From assembly GCF_000473895.1 (NCBI RefSeq), contig NZ_ASSJ01000076.1, forward strand, positions 1 through 64,000: a stretch of DNA of 64,000 bases. Reading direction: 5' to 3'. Source of the stretch: Rubidibacter lacunae KORDI 51-2. GTDB taxonomy: Bacteria; Cyanobacteriota; Cyanobacteriia; Cyanobacteriales; Rubidibacteraceae. Of the stretch, positions 50,391 through 57,364 are shown piece after piece. Below the pieces are notes generated by a model, which saw nothing but the letters and a program-made list of their open reading frames with translations, made no database searches and was not told the origin of the DNA. The number at the start of each line of letters is the position of its first letter. Positions within the stretch are counted from its first letter, which is position 1. The position numbers and the translations under genes were made by a program.

Positions 50391-51521
50391 TTATTCAATT
50401 GCCGGTGGGTCCTTTTTTCGTAACTCTTCTTCGCCTTCCGCGGTGATTTCCTCTGTCTCGCTGACGAGGAAAATCAGACGTAAGTCGGTATCGATTTCAC
50501 TGCTGACAAACTCCTGGACTAGGCGAACTTGCTTGGGCGTAATTTCCACCGCCGATTGCACGCTGAGATAGACGAGCGGCGGATTGGCAGTCCAATCCGC
50601 CCGCGTCCGCAGCAACTCTACCTCGGGCTGTCCGATCGTGACCGTGCGGCGGACTAGCGTCTCGGCGATCGCGTTTTCCAGTCGATCTTGTTTGAGAAGG
50701 CGAGCGAAACTCGTTCCCAACGGCGTAAAAAGGAGCAGTGTTAGTGCCAGCGTCCACCAGAATGCGTTGGTAAGGCGGGCGTATCCGGAAAGGACGAACA
50801 CGATCATGCACACCAACACGATGCCTAGCAGGTTGGTCGCGTACAGCAATATCGACCCGCGACCGAATGCCCAGAGATCCTGGGAAAGAGTCAATCCGGC
50901 CACGCAGAGTGGCGGCATCAGCGCCACGGCGATCGCGGTGCCGGCCAGTGTGTCACTGACCTGCGGGCGTAATTTTGCAAAGCCGCTGACCCCACCGGCA
51001 GCTAGCGCGATGCCTAAGTCCACCAAATTTGGCTGCGTGCGCGACAGGACCTCCGAGCCAAACTCCTGGACGTCGAGCAGCTCGCCGGTGCCGTATGCCA
51101 CAAAAAAACCGAGAGCCGTGCCGCCGAGCGTTGCAACGGCAGCCTTGTAAAACAAGCGCGGATCGCCTTCAAGAGCGCCGAACGCAAGAGCCCTAAGCGG
51201 CGTCATTAGCGGTGCGATCAGCATTGCCCCAATGATGACGGCGGTGCTGTTAGAAATCAAACCAAAGGTTGCGATCAGACTGGAGCTGAGAATCGTGACG
51301 ACGTACTCTAACGACCAACTCGCATCTCGCATCAGTTCGTGATGCAGATGCAACCAGCCTTTGGGATGGGTTGTGGGTTGGGGGACTACGTGGGGTACTA
51401 CGCTCCAGACAAGCGGGCGGGCGCGGTCGATCGCGGCGGATATCTCTTGACGATACTGGTTTAGATGCTGGTGCAGCAAGAGCTTGATTCGTTGGAGCCA
51501 GACGACAATTTGCTTGAACAT
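50391..51521 (-). CDS. DUF389 membrane protein (paralogue 2)
   Basis: A 376-residue DUF389 protein with the same core as the gene at 42047: NSTAVIIGAMLIAPLMTPLR, TQPNLVDLGIALAAGGVSGF and GTAIAVALMPPLCVAGLTLS. About seven membrane helices lie between residues 75 and 275. A soluble C-terminal domain of about 95 residues ends in a run of acidic residues (SETEEITAEGEEELRKKD). It has a longer cytosolic N-terminus than paralogue 1. Function unknown. Confidence 0.9.
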   Translation of the reverse strand: MFKQIVVWLQRIKLLLHQHLNQYRQEISAAIDRARPLVWSVVPHVVPQPTTHPKGWLHLHHELMRDASWSLEYVVTILSSSLIATFGLISNSTAVIIGAMLIAPLMTPLRALAFGALEGDPRLFYKAAVATLGGTALGFFVAYGTGELLDVQEFGSEVLSRTQPNLVDLGIALAAGGVSGFAKLRPQVSDTLAGTAIAVALMPPLCVAGLTLSQDLWAFGRGSILLYATNLLGIVLVCMIVFVLSGYARLTNAFWWTLALTLLLFTPLGTSFARLLKQDRLENAIAETLVRRTVTIGQPEVELLRTRADWTANPPLVYLSVQSAVEITPKQVRLVQEFVSSEIDTDLRLIFLVSETEEITAEGEEELRKKDPPAIE

Positions 51522-52228: not shown

Positions 52229-52918
52229 ATGAACAGCTCGGGGTGTTCCCACCCCCGGAATGTTGCCCGAACAGGACCCCCGATCGCCCGAGTGCAAGAT
52301 TTTTACAAACTGTCTCACCGCCAGCAGGGAATCCTTGGAACACGAATTCAGTACATTAGTGCTGCAACCAAGGCTGCGCTGGGCGATTGCAGAGAGCAAA
52401 AGCATTGGCAGCGGGAGGCAAAGCGTGCGGCAGGTTCTTGCGACCCTAGGCGTTGTCATCGCCGGTCAGATCTGGGCAATCCCTTCGATCTCCAGGGCGA
52501 TGAGCGGTTGCGCCAAAGGTCTGTCGAGTGCTACCGGATCTGGCTTAAGTCGCTGCTGCGTGCGGCGATTCGAGGCCGGGGGCACGAGGTAGTCGCTCCG
52601 ATCGCGATCGTGCACGACAAAGAATTTGCATGTGACGAGATCTTGGAAACTGGCTATCCGTACCTTGCGCCAAGTTGGAAGCAACCGACCTCCGAAAAAG
52701 TGGTCTACGCCTTGCTAGGCTTGCTCGATCGCCTGCGGGCGGGCGATCGCCTGCAGTTGAATTGCCATTGCAAACTGCCTGGAGAAGACCGCAGATGCCA
52801 CGCAGATGTAATTGTTGGCTGCCTGGAATGGATCGCTCAACACTCCGACGATCGCCCCCTGGTTCGGAGGGGAAAACGCCAACAGTCATCTCCTCGATCT
52901 CGGCGGGTGTCCGCTTGA
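52229..52918 (+). CDS. DUF4326-domain protein, start uncertain
   Basis: The C-terminal ~155 residues match DUF4326, a domain common in phage and accessory DNA. RRSDLGNPFDLQGDERLRQR then SVECYRIWLKSLLRAA opens it, and RLRAGDRLQLNCHCKLPGED with RRCHADVIVGCLEWI ends it with the expected Cys/His cluster. The family function is unknown; nucleotide or deoxyribosyl-type chemistry has been suggested by fold. The first ~75 residues are not domain-like, so the true start may be internal and non-ATG, or the 5' end is altered. Orientation is opposite to the flanking pentapeptide genes. Confidence 0.65.
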   Translation: MNSSGCSHPRNVARTGPPIARVQDFYKLSHRQQGILGTRIQYISAATKAALGDCREQKHWQREAKRAAGSCDPRRCHRRSDLGNPFDLQGDERLRQRSVECYRIWLKSLLRAAIRGRGHEVVAPIAIVHDKEFACDEILETGYPYLAPSWKQPTSEKVVYALLGLLDRLRAGDRLQLNCHCKLPGEDRRCHADVIVGCLEWIAQHSDDRPLVRRGKRQQSSPRSRRVSA

Positions 52919-53014
52919 TGCGATCGCGCGATTGACACCTCGCCAGGCATAGGGGGGGCTAATCCCGCTAATTGTTGCTATGAGCTCTTGTCGCAGGGCA
53001 GTGGTTCCTCGTGC

Positions 53015-53932
53015 TCATCTGACTTCTGGTCTACATCCGCGGAAAATTGCGCCCGGGTAACCGGAGATGAAACAGAGGTTACTGGCTTTACCTAGAGTGT
53101 CTCCCACCAGGTTGGCTCCCACCAGGTTGGCTCCCTCCAGGTTGACTCCCACCAGGTTGGCTCCCTCCAGGTTGGCTCCCTCCAGGTTGGCTCTCTCCAG
53201 GTTGGCTCCCTCCAGGTTGGCTCCCACCAGGTTGGCTCCCTCCAGGTTGGCTGCCCACAAGAAGGCTCCCACCAGGTTGGCTCCCTCCAGGTTGGCTCCC
53301 ACCAGGTTGGCTCCCCCCAGGTTGGCTCCAGAGCGAGCTTCTGTTGCGATCAGTTCCCGGACTTCATCAATGATTTCTTCGTTCTGCCGCTCTTTACCAA
53401 AAAGAGAGAAATAGACTCGCCAGAATTCCAGGACATTGTTTGGATCCAGTGGGATTTGATGGTCCCTTTGTAGCCGCACGGCTCTCTCGATAGCCGTCAG
53501 CCTAGAGTTGGTTGCAAGTTGGGCTGTGATAACCGTTAAGCGCGTTTCAACTGCGTCCCGACGAGCCTCGTAACGACTGAGTGCCAAACTGTAGGCAGCA
53601 AAGTGGATTCCCAGCAGCCACAACAGGAATCCACTCTTTCTGGCGTGCACTAACCGGTCATAAATCAACCCGACCGGAAGGAAATCGAAGAAAAACCAGC
53701 GGCGAACATCCTTCTGGACTATTTGTTTCTCAGCCTCAAGCCAATAGCGATGGCCGCAATCCTCCGGCTTACCGTCTGCCTCCCACAACTGATAGGCAAG
53801 CTTTTCGGTCGCGCGGTGGCGCTTAGCTGCAGCAGAATCCTTCCACCGATCGGCCAAGCTACGGTTGTGTGGGTTCTTTATCCAGTTCCAAAAGTCGTCG
53901 AGCTTGTCCGGTCCGCTATCTCGCCAGCTCAC
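53015..53932 (-). CDS. DUF2934-like/TM/pentapeptide-repeat protein, copy A
   Basis: A 305-residue protein. Residues 40-70 resemble DUF2934 ([31 protein letters not shown]). A hydrophobic region follows at about 78-125 ([16 protein letters not shown], then [18 protein letters not shown]). A coiled-coil-like stretch is next ([20 protein letters not shown]). From about residue 200 come roughly 17 pentapeptide repeats of the type A(N/D)LxG. Such repeats form a right-handed square helix. The topology suggests a membrane-tethered helix facing one compartment. It is a tandem paralogue of 54031-55239. Confidence 0.88.
53095..53330. repeat. 15-bp tandem repeat array coding pentapeptides (copy A)
   Basis: About fifteen near-identical 15-bp units (ggttggctccctcca and variants with ctcccacca) in a row. 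The DNA identity between units is higher than the protein repeat requires, pointing to recent slippage or gene conversion. The repeat number may differ between strains. Confidence 0.85.
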
Positions 53933-54030
53933 TTACTGTTCCTCTCCCCGACATCCCCGCCAGCCTACCAGAGGAGGGGTCTGCGTGCTTTGGCGATCGG
54001 GGGGGTCACTGGTAATACTGATAATGACAG

Positions 54031-55239
54031 TTATGGGCTCTTGTCATAGGGCAGTGGTTCCTTGTGCCCATCTGGTGCCTGGTCTGGGCAGTCTCTGAAG
54101 GAAACTATGCCCGAGGGGAGGTGGGTGTGGCAGAGGTGGGCGGCTTCGCTTAGGTTGGGTGCCCGCAGCTCTGATTCCCCCTGGTTAGCTCCCCTCGGAT
54201 TGGCTCCCAACAGGTTGGCTCTCAACAGGTTGGCTCCCTTAAGATTGGCTCCCTTAAGATTGGCTCCCACCAGGTTGGCTCCCACCAGGTTGGCTCCCAC
54301 CAGGTTGGCTCCCACCAGGTTGGCATCCTCCAGGTTGGCAAAAACCAGGTCAGCTTCCTCCAGGTTGGTTCTCACCAGGCTAGCTTTCTCCAGGTCGGTA
54401 AAAACCAGAAAGGCGTCCTCCAGGTTGGCTCCCACCAGGCTAGCTTCCTTCAGGTTGGCTTCCTTCAGGTTGGCTGCCTCCAGGTTGGCAAAAGCCAGGT
54501 TGGCTCCCACCAGGCTAGCTTTCTCCAGGTCGGCAAAAACCAGGTCGGCTCCCTCCAGGTTGGCAAAAGCCAGCTTGGCTTCCGCCAGGTTGGCTCTTTT
54601 TAGCCCAACTTCACTAACAGCTTCTGCTGCGATCAGTCCCCCGATTTCATAAATAATTTCTTTGTTCTGCTGCTCTTCCCCAAAAAGAGAGATATAGACT
54701 CGCCAGAACTCCTGCACATTGTTTGGATCCAGTGGGATTCGATGGTCCCTTTGTAGCTGCACGGCTCTCTCGATGGTTGTCAGTCTAGAGTCAGTAGCAA
54801 GTTGAGCTGTGATAACCGTTAAGCGCGTTTCAACTGCGTCCCGACGAGCCTCGTAACGACTGAGTGCCAAGCCAAAGGCGGCAAAGTGAATTCCCAGCAG
54901 CCACAACGCGAATCCACTCTTTCTAGCATGCACTAAACGTTCATAAATCAACGAAACTGGAAGGAAATCGAAGAAGAACCAGCGGCAGAAACCCTTTGTG
55001 AATGAAAGGCTGTCGAAGAAGAACCGGCGGCAGAAATGTTTCTGGGATATTTGTTCCTCAACCTCTAGCCAATAACGATCTCCTGAGTCTTCCGGTTTTC
55101 CGTCCGCTCCCCACTGCAGGTACACGAGCTTTCCGGTTGCCTGGTGGTGCTCCACGGCAACTTGCTTCCGCTGCGCTTCCAAGGTTTCCCGAAGCCCCTG
55201 CCCGCCAAGGGGTTCTTCCTTGCTTTTCGTTTCCGCCAC
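54031..55239 (-). CDS. DUF2934-like/TM/pentapeptide-repeat protein, copy B
   Basis: A 402-residue paralogue of copy A with the same order: DUF2934-like segment (TGKLVYLQWGADGKPEDSGD, RYWLEVEEQI), hydrophobic region, coiled coil ([20 protein letters not shown]), NNVQEFWRVYISLFGEEQQN, then about 27 pentapeptides. Some pentapeptides carry F at the centre (LVFADLEKA, LAFANLEAA). It has a short internal duplication before the helix ([21 protein letters not shown]), encoded by a repeat at about 54985-55040. The C-terminal tail (CPDQAPDGHKEPLPYDKSP) is polar. It lies upstream of copy A on the same strand. Confidence 0.88.
   Translation of the reverse strand: MAETKSKEEPLGGQGLRETLEAQRKQVAVEHHQATGKLVYLQWGADGKPEDSGDRYWLEVEEQISQKHFCRRFFFDSLSFTKGFCRWFFFDFLPVSLIYERLVHARKSGFALWLLGIHFAAFGLALSRYEARRDAVETRLTVITAQLATDSRLTTIERAVQLQRDHRIPLDPNNVQEFWRVYISLFGEEQQNKEIIYEIGGLIAAEAVSEVGLKRANLAEAKLAFANLEGADLVFADLEKASLVGANLAFANLEAANLKEANLKEASLVGANLEDAFLVFTDLEKASLVRTNLEEADLVFANLEDANLVGANLVGANLVGANLVGANLKGANLKGANLLRANLLGANPRGANQGESELRAPNLSEAAHLCHTHLPSGIVSFRDCPDQAPDGHKEPLPYDKSP
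54175..54600. repeat. 15-bp degenerate tandem repeats (copy B)
   Basis: The DNA coding the pentapeptides of copy B keeps a 15-bp period (caggttggctccca-type units). It is more diverged than in copy A except for four nearly identical units at about 54263-54325. Confidence 0.75.
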
Positions 55240-55372
55240 AGACCAAACTCACCCACTGCAACATTGCCGTCACCCTACCAGAAGAGGGGGGCACGCGCGT
55301 GCAGTAGCGATCGCCCGTTTGACTCCACCACAGACAGCGTGCGGCAGCAGTGCTTGTTTCTAGCAAGTGTGC

Positions 55373-56257
55373 TTAACGTCCGAAGCGGGCTAAGAACTCG
55401 TCGCGTGTTTGAGTAGCGATCGCTAGTAAGGCTCGCGCTTGTTCGGTCTCTGGAAACTGCGCGATCGCGGTAGCCGCCCGAGCCAATTCGTCGTCGAGGG
55501 TGCCGTAACGTAGCTGCATGAGATTCTCGGCGCTTGCCCGCGCGTTCTCCTGGCGCGCCTCTTGTCTGGTCTCTTCACGCCATCGTAAGTATGCGGGTGA
55601 CAAGTTCATGAGCACTTCCTCGTCGTCCTGGTTTCTATTTTGCCGGACCTCGATGGTGTAGCGCCAGTTCTCAAGCAGCTCCAGCACCCGCGCCACGGTC
55701 GGCGACCCCGGTAGCGCGCGAACCTCCTCGATCGCCGCACGCTGCACTCGCCCGCGACCCAGCTCGCGCAACATCAAGGTTTCTGGCGTTACCGGGAGCT
55801 GGTGGATGGCGATGAGGTTGATGCGGTAGCCCTCGGGTCCGGCGTAGATGCCCGGTAGCCAGTTGGGTCGAGCCGTCGCGCTGAAGCGATCGCGAAAGGC
55901 ATCCGAAAGGGTGGGCGAGAGTACCCAGAGCTGGGGCAGTTCTGCGGGCGTATCCTCACCGCGATCGGACCGTCGGCGCTGGTCGGCACGGAGACCGTAG
56001 AGCTTATTCAGGCTGTCTTCGATGTCGCTGTCTTCGGGGGCGTTCCGGAAGATTTCGAGGGCACAGGGTACGGTGCCGATGCGACCGAATAAGCCCAACA
56101 ACGACGGCGCGTCTGTTGAGGGGGAAGCCGGGACGAAAAAGACATCGACCTGGCGGGTCTCGTCGAAGACGTCGAAGCTGGAGGTGGCGCGACCGAGGGG
56201 TTCGAGGAGGTCGGCGAGGAACTGTTTGGCGAGGTCGTCGTGGGGTTGGCGCGACAT
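55373..56257 (-). CDS. Rpn/DUF4351-like PD-(D/E)XK family protein
   Basis: A 294-residue protein resembling cyanobacterial recombination-promoting-nuclease-like (transposase_31-related) proteins. The N-terminus DDLAKQFLADLLEPLGRATS, then DETRQVDVFFVP and IGTVPCALEIFRNAPEDSD could supply the nuclease-core Asp and Glu. RWREETRQEARQENARASAE is the helical linker seen in such proteins, and the C-terminal helices have QTRDEFLARFGR. The family occurs in many copies per genome and is linked to mobile DNA. Activity is not assured. Confidence 0.7.
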   Translation of the reverse strand: MSRQPHDDLAKQFLADLLEPLGRATSSFDVFDETRQVDVFFVPASPSTDAPSLLGLFGRIGTVPCALEIFRNAPEDSDIEDSLNKLYGLRADQRRRSDRGEDTPAELPQLWVLSPTLSDAFRDRFSATARPNWLPGIYAGPEGYRINLIAIHQLPVTPETLMLRELGRGRVQRAAIEEVRALPGSPTVARVLELLENWRYTIEVRQNRNQDDEEVLMNLSPAYLRWREETRQEARQENARASAENLMQLRYGTLDDELARAATAIAQFPETEQARALLAIATQTRDEFLARFGR

Positions 56258-56701: not shown

Positions 56702-56937
56702 GTGCAAATTCTTCGTAAGGATGGGTTTAAAGTTCGCGTGTACCCAAACGACCACGAGCCAGCCCACGTTCACGTTTACAAGGCAGGCATGGAGATGAGG
56801 GTTGATATCTCTAGCCTCGAAGACGGGCCGGAACCTCTGGATGTCCAGATGGACAATAAGAACGCGCTCAGAGCACTCAGGCTCATGAAGCAAACCAGAG
56901 TCAGTTGCTCGAGCGGTGGAGGGAGATACATGTCTAG
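56702..56937 (+). pseudogene. DUF4160 gene with a frameshift
   Basis: The frame from GTG 56702 reads RKDGFKVRVYPNDHEPAHVH then VYKAG, the DUF4160 core. The expected end of that family, a helix like ANQSQLLERWREIHV followed by a stop, is found in the next frame: codons from 56881 (AHEANQSQLLERWREIHV) end at TAG 56935-56937. One lost base just before 56881 explains the shift. As it stands the first frame continues into the DUF2442 gene and predicts a fused 220-residue protein. A base-calling error is possible. Confidence 0.75.
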
Positions 56938-57364
56938 TGCACCCTTTGAAGAAGCGCAGATGCTGGATAAGCTGTCCCGCGCAAAGATGGTAACTGAGGC
57001 GTCTGCCGAACCGCGGGCTGTAGAGGCTTGGTATGACGAACCGAGAGATATGGTCGTCGTGTGTTTCGACAATGGCACTGAGTTCGGATTTCCACGCCAG
57101 CTGGGACAGGGGCTTGCAAAGGCGTCTCCTCAGCAGCTTGCGAAGGTAAGGGTTACTCCCCTGGGAACGGGGTTGCAGTGGGAGACCCTTGACGTTGACC
57201 TGAGCATTCCTCACCTGATACAAGGCTTTTTTGGAATGCGTCAATGGATGTCTGAGCTGGGCAAGCGGGGCGGGGCGTCGAAGTCAAGTGCTAAAGCTCG
57301 AGCTGCGAGAAGCAATGGGAAGAAAGGAGGGAGACCGCCGCAACCGAATGCACGCGAAGAGTAG
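56930..57364 (+). CDS. DUF2442 family protein
   Basis: A 144-residue protein from ATG 56930 (MSSAPFEEAQMLDKLSRAKM). The DUF2442 core is EPRAVEAWYDEPRDMVVVCF, DNGTEFGFPRQLGQGLAKAS, then TGLQWETLDVDLSIPHLIQG. The C-terminus is basic with SELGKRGGASKSSAKARAAR and GKKGGRPP, a pattern seen in antitoxin-like DUF2442 proteins. The gene overlaps the end of the DUF4160 frame by 8 bp, the usual pairing for these two families, which are often treated as a putative toxin-antitoxin or mobile module. Confidence 0.85.
   Translation: MSSAPFEEAQMLDKLSRAKMVTEASAEPRAVEAWYDEPRDMVVVCFDNGTEFGFPRQLGQGLAKASPQQLAKVRVTPLGTGLQWETLDVDLSIPHLIQGFFGMRQWMSELGKRGGASKSSAKARAARSNGKKGGRPPQPNAREE

Follow-up and report, generated by a model that had tools for sequence, protein, structure and literature searches.

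What do two neighbouring genes encode that each join a small head and a hydrophobic region to a long pentapeptide helix, and were they duplicated as whole genes or only through their repeats? This question was raised by a stretch of 64,000 nucleotides of the cyanobacterium Rubidibacter lacunae KORDI 51-2 (contig NZ_ASSJ01000076.1, positions 1 to 64,000; hereafter the window), for which a preliminary description had proposed a tandem duplication of two adjacent genes on the same strand. Both open reading frames (ORFs) were confirmed and, as read from the ORF list, lie head to tail on the minus strand, with gene B (54031-55239; 402 amino acids, GTG start) upstream and gene A (53015-53932; 305 amino acids, GTG start) downstream. 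Comparison of the two genes confirmed that the tandem duplication is real and that it covers the whole gene including the head, not just the repeats. With a probability of about 0.4, A and B are read here as tandem paralogues, both descended from a single gene that encoded a pentapeptide-repeat adaptor anchored in the membrane.

Gene A encodes, in this order, a DUF2934 domain (residues 43-71, positions 53720-53806; 31.5 bits against the Pfam cut-off of 22 for PF11154), a putative transmembrane segment (residues 101-119, positions 53576-53632; Kyte-Doolittle 19-residue maximum 1.61), a putatively helical neck of 20 residues (residues 119-138, positions 53519-53578) and about 15 pentapeptides, of which 15 consecutive units were recognised by regular expression (residues 203-277, positions 53102-53326), all on the minus strand. 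The same order was found in B on the same strand, with a diverged DUF2934-like segment (approximate borders 55048-55134), a putative transmembrane segment (residues 109-127, positions 54859-54915; Kyte-Doolittle maximum 1.74), a neck in which all 20 amino acids are identical to those of A in the alignment, as had been noticed before, and about 28 pentapeptides (28 consecutive units by regular expression, residues 211-350, positions 54190-54609). Both proteins belong to the pentapeptide family PF00805, with at least eight consecutive pentapeptides and profile scores of 110 bits for A (E 2.8e-32) and 112 bits for B (E 6.6e-33) against the cut-off of 20.2. The DUF2934-like segment previously ascribed to both genes is secure in A; in B no Pfam match appeared in the list up to E 1, and the segment was recognised by its alignment to A only. 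Within the genome of this strain (4.15 Mb, 99 contigs), the head matched at A and B only and a whole-genome search placed DUF2934 at one place, in A, while the pentapeptide family gave 105 matches.

The two proteins are 68% identical, and in the head long blocks match without a difference. The head DNA without the repeats aligned over 379 bp at 88.4% identity (blastn, E 7.3e-132), and the DUF2934 part added a further 144 bp at 76%; the similarity is thus not confined to the pentapeptide parts, and the earlier proposal of a duplication reaching beyond them holds. In the arrays the alignment of A and B DNA contained gaps of 45, 75 and 105 bp. Each is a whole number of 15-bp units, and where they fall within the repeats is arbitrary, their placement in the DNA alignment not being unique. 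Near the membrane segment B carries an extra stretch of 45 bp (54997-55041, minus strand, approximate borders), the 15 residues of which resemble the juxtamembrane sequence that follows them, as in an internal duplication. From residue 41 of A through the array, the gaps preserve the reading frame; before this residue, no in-frame alignment of A and B is obtained. A KNP...PWK stretch slightly similar to the N-terminus of A occurs in a different frame of B, and we would guess that the start of B may have moved as well.

The preliminary description had extended the homology into the flanking DNA on both sides and, from this, to the whole transcription unit. On the 3' side, 43 bp are indeed shared (blastn, 88%, E 3e-11), but at B (54032-54074, minus strand) this segment is the in-frame coding C-terminus of the gene (GHKEPLPYDKSP-stop), while at A (52979-53021, minus strand) a 5-bp indel puts it out of frame, and it straddles and mostly follows the stop codon. 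When A is read in the frame of B, a similar peptide is obtained with a stop at the same position, and the shared 3' end would most simply represent old coding sequence from which the frame of A shifted; the shift cannot be polarised by an outgroup, because the C-terminus of the relative at locus L006 (see below) differs. The shared 5' segment is weak (blastn 23 bp, 87%, E 0.007) and is located upstream of B at 55267-55289 and upstream of A at 53957-53979, both on the minus strand. Since the 3' segment is coding in B, no promoter-like sites were found, and the terminator-like sites numbered two, both on the plus strand, against 3.6 expected by chance, duplication of a whole transcription unit is not demonstrated.

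Alignment of the heads also allowed the duplication to be dated as proposed. Over 162 head codons, the NG86 method gave a silent divergence (dS) of 0.434, a replacement divergence (dN) of 0.116 and a dN/dS ratio of 0.27, and the proportions of replacement and silent changes differed (Fisher p 1e-7). The duplication is not recent, as judged from the head dS of 0.43, and the head has been under net purifying selection since then, the ratio being an average over both copies that cannot show selection on each of them.

Silent divergence was distributed unevenly along the head, the proportion of silent differences (pS) being 0.74 in the DUF2934 part, 0.37 in the membrane part, 0.11 in the neck and 0.21 in the linker. 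Among degenerate codons for the same residue, 17 of 42 varied silently before residue 101 of A against 12 of 81 after it (Fisher p 0.003), this cut point being one of three tried after the data had been seen (p 0.005, 0.003 and 0.019, uncorrected), and the longest run free of silent change spans 22 codons (permutation p 0.04). This pattern suggests that the middle of the heads has undergone partial gene conversion, so that perfect identity of the 20-residue neck alone does not prove constraint. That conversion keeps the middle of the heads alike at least as much as constraint does, a process compatible with the other readings, is given a chance slightly short of even, allowing for the post hoc choice of cut points. 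Constraint does play a part, because the RYE, D and ET residues of the head are also retained in two distant relatives.

How widely this head, hereafter the RYE head, is distributed was examined by several searches with overlapping genome samples. A single-sequence search at E 0.001 matched 3 of 60 genomes, namely that of R. lacunae itself, G031 (strongly) and G025 (in the DUF2934 part only), and the head was found in none of eight genomes of the same family. A profile search of 386 genomes of the phylum returned R. lacunae and one chance match with stops; G100 was dropped as a head relative for its stops. Among 388 genomes of the same order, 17 matched the profile at E 0.05, and the RYE head was counted in three of them, R. 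lacunae, G031 and G606 (E 4e-30). In G025 and G530 the match was to DUF2934 only. The remaining 12 genomes (E 0.004-0.045) were counted as chance or unrelated matches, several with internal stops; nine of their loci, all but L045, L047 and L055, were inspected, and one of these nine, L053 (G568), is a DUF2934 piece. Within the family of G606, the head was found in 1 of 50 genomes. Neither IMG/VR, in a search reaching close relatives only, nor 72,556 plasmid records (tblastn, E 1e-3) contained a relative of the head of A. The RYE head is rare.

A search of contigs added one locus of a Prochloraceae metagenome-assembled genome (MAG), which encodes a protein of 548 amino acids, as long as that of G031. 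This relative (L006:1844-3490, plus strand) combines the RYE head, pentapeptides and a C-terminal PDZ domain, and its DUF2934-like segment was recognisable in the alignment, not by Pfam. The RYE protein of G606 (420 amino acids) contains pentapeptides and no DUF2934 match. As to the proposed check whether head and helix recur as a pair, the RYE head precedes pentapeptides in both MAG/G031 and G606 as well; the head was counted in only 3 of the 388 genomes of the order. Beside the MAG relative, a large pentapeptide gene adjoins on the opposite strand (L006:3972-6032, minus strand). In G031, a second RYE-type linker piece lacking a transmembrane segment stands before a pentapeptide array (L057), and its upstream part was not found in the same frame.

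Absence of the RYE head from all eight genomes of the same family and from 49 of 50 of that of G606 would also fit A and B being non-functional or nearly so, a decaying lineage-specific duplicate whose frames would stay open thanks to the tolerance of in-frame pentapeptide DNA for changes. Such decay agrees with the frame-shifted C-terminus of A relative to B, with the N-termini that do not align in frame before residue 41 and with the fall of DUF2934 in B below detection, but is opposed by the dN/dS of 0.27 over the head codons, as an average over both copies (Fisher p 1e-7), by both ORFs being open and by the in-frame gaps from residue 41 of A through the array, and we regard it as unlikely.

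The order of parts was called rare in the preliminary description, a statement that the genome survey did not support. DUF2934 was detected in 29 of 376 genomes of the order and in 2 of 292 of a wider sample, and the 29 genomes were sorted by eye from their frames. In nine of them, including R. lacunae with gene A (the others being G025, G530, G404, G056, G606, G610, G586 and G617), DUF2934 precedes a hydrophobic segment and pentapeptides. The protein of G025 ends at the contig end, the genes of G586 and G617 are split by a frame change and G617 shows few repeats; G610 and G056 scored 24.9 and 22.8 bits in the genome search and 20.4 and 18.5 bits against the cut-off of 22 in hmmscan. In 13 of the 29 genomes (L058-L069 and L080), DUF2934 resides, in contrast to A, in which it is also clear, in a small protein that in most cases carries a CPG.NCPIK..CYRFTAE-like cysteine motif ahead of it. 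The other seven comprise two C-terminal DUF2934 domains, two soluble proteins, one two-helix protein, one leucyl-tRNA synthetase and G568, in which only an N-terminal piece is left. The order of DUF2934, membrane segment and pentapeptides therefore recurs and is not unique to A.

At least four kinds of membrane head were distinguished by eye, the RYE head of A, a GSGGRIEAL head (in G025, G530, G586, G606, G610 and G617), that of G404 and that of G056. Homology between the RYE and GSGGRIEAL heads was not supported, as hhalign aligned the DUF2934 part only and, without it, gave a probability of 1% (chance level). Three DUF2934-like units in tandem (the third by eye) stand before the membrane head in L076, L078 and L079, the gene being split by a frame change in L076 and L079. 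In one genus, 2 of 53 genomes (L085/L087 in G624, and L088 in G204) also have two DUF2934 copies in tandem within their leucyl-tRNA synthetase; the copies of G624 are alike in 95 of 99 bases and are 36 codons apart, and tandem DUF2934 is missing from this synthetase of three other members of the genus that were read letter by letter. In the parts of four papers available to us (PMC13133039, PMC12285230, PMC9100948 and PMC12502724), no function of DUF2934 and no such architecture is stated, and in the literature searched, which covers few subscription papers and was accessible in part, DUF2934 and pentapeptides occurred together in one paper only, on separate proteins.

The order is more widespread when DUF2934 is set aside. 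Profile A6, which represents the GSGGRIEAL head with DUF2934 left out, matched 29 of 214 genomes of the order at 40 places; that of R. lacunae was not among them at E 1e-6, and a further anchored pentapeptide protein of this strain (L035, contig C47), with an AWQVI neck by eye and no DUF2934 match, was missed by the profile at this threshold. Of 30 extracted loci, 28 contained pentapeptide motifs in the same open frame, a count biased towards repeats by the extension of A6 to the first of them; in L125 the motifs were in an adjacent frame and in L128 none were found. DUF2934 was detected by a 10-sequence profile in 1 of the 30 loci, and L119 gave a Pfam match below threshold (E 0.022). Pfam analysis of 20 chosen proteins identified pentapeptides in all 20, an N-terminal globin in two (L143 and L144) and a C-terminal periplasmic-binding domain in three (L138, L139 and L142). 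Hydropathy of 31 frames of this class indicated one membrane helix in 23, two in six (the globin proteins included) and none in two partial frames. Each of L143 and L144 (G040 and G009) contains two tandem globin stretches, two hydrophobic helices, a GSGGRIEAL-type neck and pentapeptides in one protein; in the literature searched (few subscription papers covered), pentapeptide repeat, globin domain and cyanobacteria were not found together.

With respect to structure, each of A and B possesses, before the repeats, a single strong hydrophobic segment in addition to a weak one (Kyte-Doolittle about 1.0), and hydropathy gave no hydrophobic stretch near the N-terminus. Of the hydrophobic region followed by a coiled coil that had been described, the former stood as one clear 19-residue stretch in each protein, but the neck is helical only in a region of the AlphaFold model with a predicted local distance difference test score (pLDDT) under 50. 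The repeat region was modelled as a beta-helix (pLDDT 70-78), and the helices in DUF2934 were weakly supported (pLDDT 64-74). A search of the PDB with the head gave one weak match only (E 0.064) and that with DUF2934 none; the head did not prove to be a well-characterised domain, DUF2934 having no named function. As A and B are devoid of an N-terminal hydrophobic stretch, it is simpler to assume that the N-terminus is cytosolic, which with one membrane helix would place the neck and the repeats outside, an arrangement fitted by the C-terminal periplasmic-binding and PDZ domains of relatives. We lean only slightly, at barely better than even odds, towards an N-terminus in the cytosol and a repeat helix outside (periplasm or lumen), because the flanking charges, the two-helix globin members and L084, all considered below, speak against it.

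If A and B are paralogous membrane-anchored adaptors, the N-terminal DUF2934 would be a small, portable helical module for docking of a partner, the one hydrophobic helix would serve as the membrane anchor, and the short helical neck would cap the square beta-helix, which could change its length by whole five-residue units with the fold intact and may act as a rigid binding arm. After the duplication the copies would have drifted, with arm lengths of 15 and 28 units, a shifted C-terminal frame in A and DUF2934 of B below detection, and this drift in arm length and ends suggests that A and B most likely have an anchor in common and differ in their reach or in their partners. The membrane side of the domains and the function are what we infer from sequence.

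Several observations weigh against this adaptor reading. The model of the head was poor (mean pLDDT 49, residues 73-203 under 50), and lysine plus arginine residues beside the hydrophobic segment of A, three before and four after, are alike on both sides. In L084 (G056), a hydrophobic stretch resembling a signal or first membrane helix precedes DUF2934 in addition to that after it, so that DUF2934 would there be outside, and the two helices of the six A6-class frames, a commoner class, would bring the repeats to the N-terminal side. Among the four RYE proteins, A alone passes the Pfam cut-off for DUF2934, which is therefore not a constant part of them. The frayed gene ends and the patchy distribution also suit genes being lost. 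Finally, no neighbour between 50391 and 59242 of the window points to a link with A and B or names a pathway, the genes there being those for a DUF389 protein (50391-51521), a DUF4326 protein (52229-52918), a protein without Pfam match (55373-56257), a DUF2442/DUF4160 protein (56702-57364) and cytochrome P450 (57923-59242).

A broader proposal, for which the prospects are rather poor, is that a modular class of membrane proteins, so far undescribed, exists in cyanobacteria. In it, the pentapeptide beta-helix would be a rigid stalk of tunable length, end modules would be exchanged (DUF2934, once to three times, or globin at one end, and a PDZ or periplasmic-binding domain at the other), coupling of signals or partners across the membrane would proceed via the neck, and A and B would be tuned by stalk length. 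The same variety of N- and C-terminal modules around anchor and repeat helix could also reflect trans-membrane signalling, in which the membrane helix and neck would link a DUF2934 or globin module for input or output with a sensor of ligands or peptides on the stalk, A and B lacking the distal sensor. This is still more doubtful, since A and B carry no C-terminal sensor, the likeness of the RYE and GSGGRIEAL heads may be convergent (hhalign probability 1%), no scanned protein combines a DUF2934 match with a C-terminal binding domain and the topology is contradictory in L084 and the two-helix members.

The membrane-anchored adaptor reading has its nearest described counterpart in HglK of Nostoc PCC 7120, a pentapeptide protein of the cytoplasmic membrane involved in septal junctions and glycolipid placement, with 727 amino acids, four predicted membrane helices and 36 repeats from residue 501 (PMC8145042, here and below as far as its available parts go). 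Accordingly, the earlier statement that a membrane-tethered pentapeptide helix has no assigned function does not hold. HglK resembles A and B in being cyanobacterial and in the order of an N-terminal membrane part and an A(D/N)LXX pentapeptide domain; compared by description only, A and B differ in having one clear hydrophobic helix instead of four N-terminal ones, and A in having DUF2934. The 'AWQVI...GSGGRIEALEFLN' anchored proteins found with A6 share with A and B the hydrophobic helix, short charged neck and pentapeptide array, and some carry DUF2934 in front, but the same hhalign comparison detected no homology of their head with the RYE head and their class is far commoner. RfrA of Synechocystis 6803, tied to the regulation of manganese uptake, differs in its N-terminal repeats within a protein of 398 amino acids (PMC8145042). 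The general kind represented by HglK, a membrane-anchored pentapeptide protein, is known, and the combination in A and B is new.

Other class assignments were rejected. A and B scored 52.5 and 96.4 bits against the equivalog cut-off of 260 for HetL (NF047416), and 57.5 and 94.4 bits against that of 125 for the Alr5209 family (NF052603). PADLOC, searched for anti-phage defence, gave for A only Cas11e at E 0.0044, for B nothing and for the L006 relative Cmr1 at E 0.13. Protection of gyrase by DNA mimicry as in Qnr/MfpA, suggested by weak NCBIfam similarity through the repeats, is highly improbable, as the scores (12.6-64.7 bits, at most 64.7) stay far from the cut-offs of 240-500 and a membrane anchor does not fit. 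On the plus strand opposite the arrays, long ORFs are present at 53067-53414 and 54062-54652 of the window, and likewise in L004 and L006; they look like a by-product of the repeats.

Pentapeptide proteins are abundant in cyanobacteria, where their biochemical functions, according to the available parts of PMC8145042, 'remain almost completely unknown', some pentapeptide domains serving as protein-binding scaffolds. The recurrence of the order of small module, membrane segment, neck and repeat helix is a better lead than the pair itself. It leads to a testable idea of the role of the helix, which would be a length-adjustable arm of a membrane protein, and gives DUF2934 a recurrent context. In the tandem pair of R. 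lacunae, two arm lengths on a common anchor can be compared as they occur in nature.

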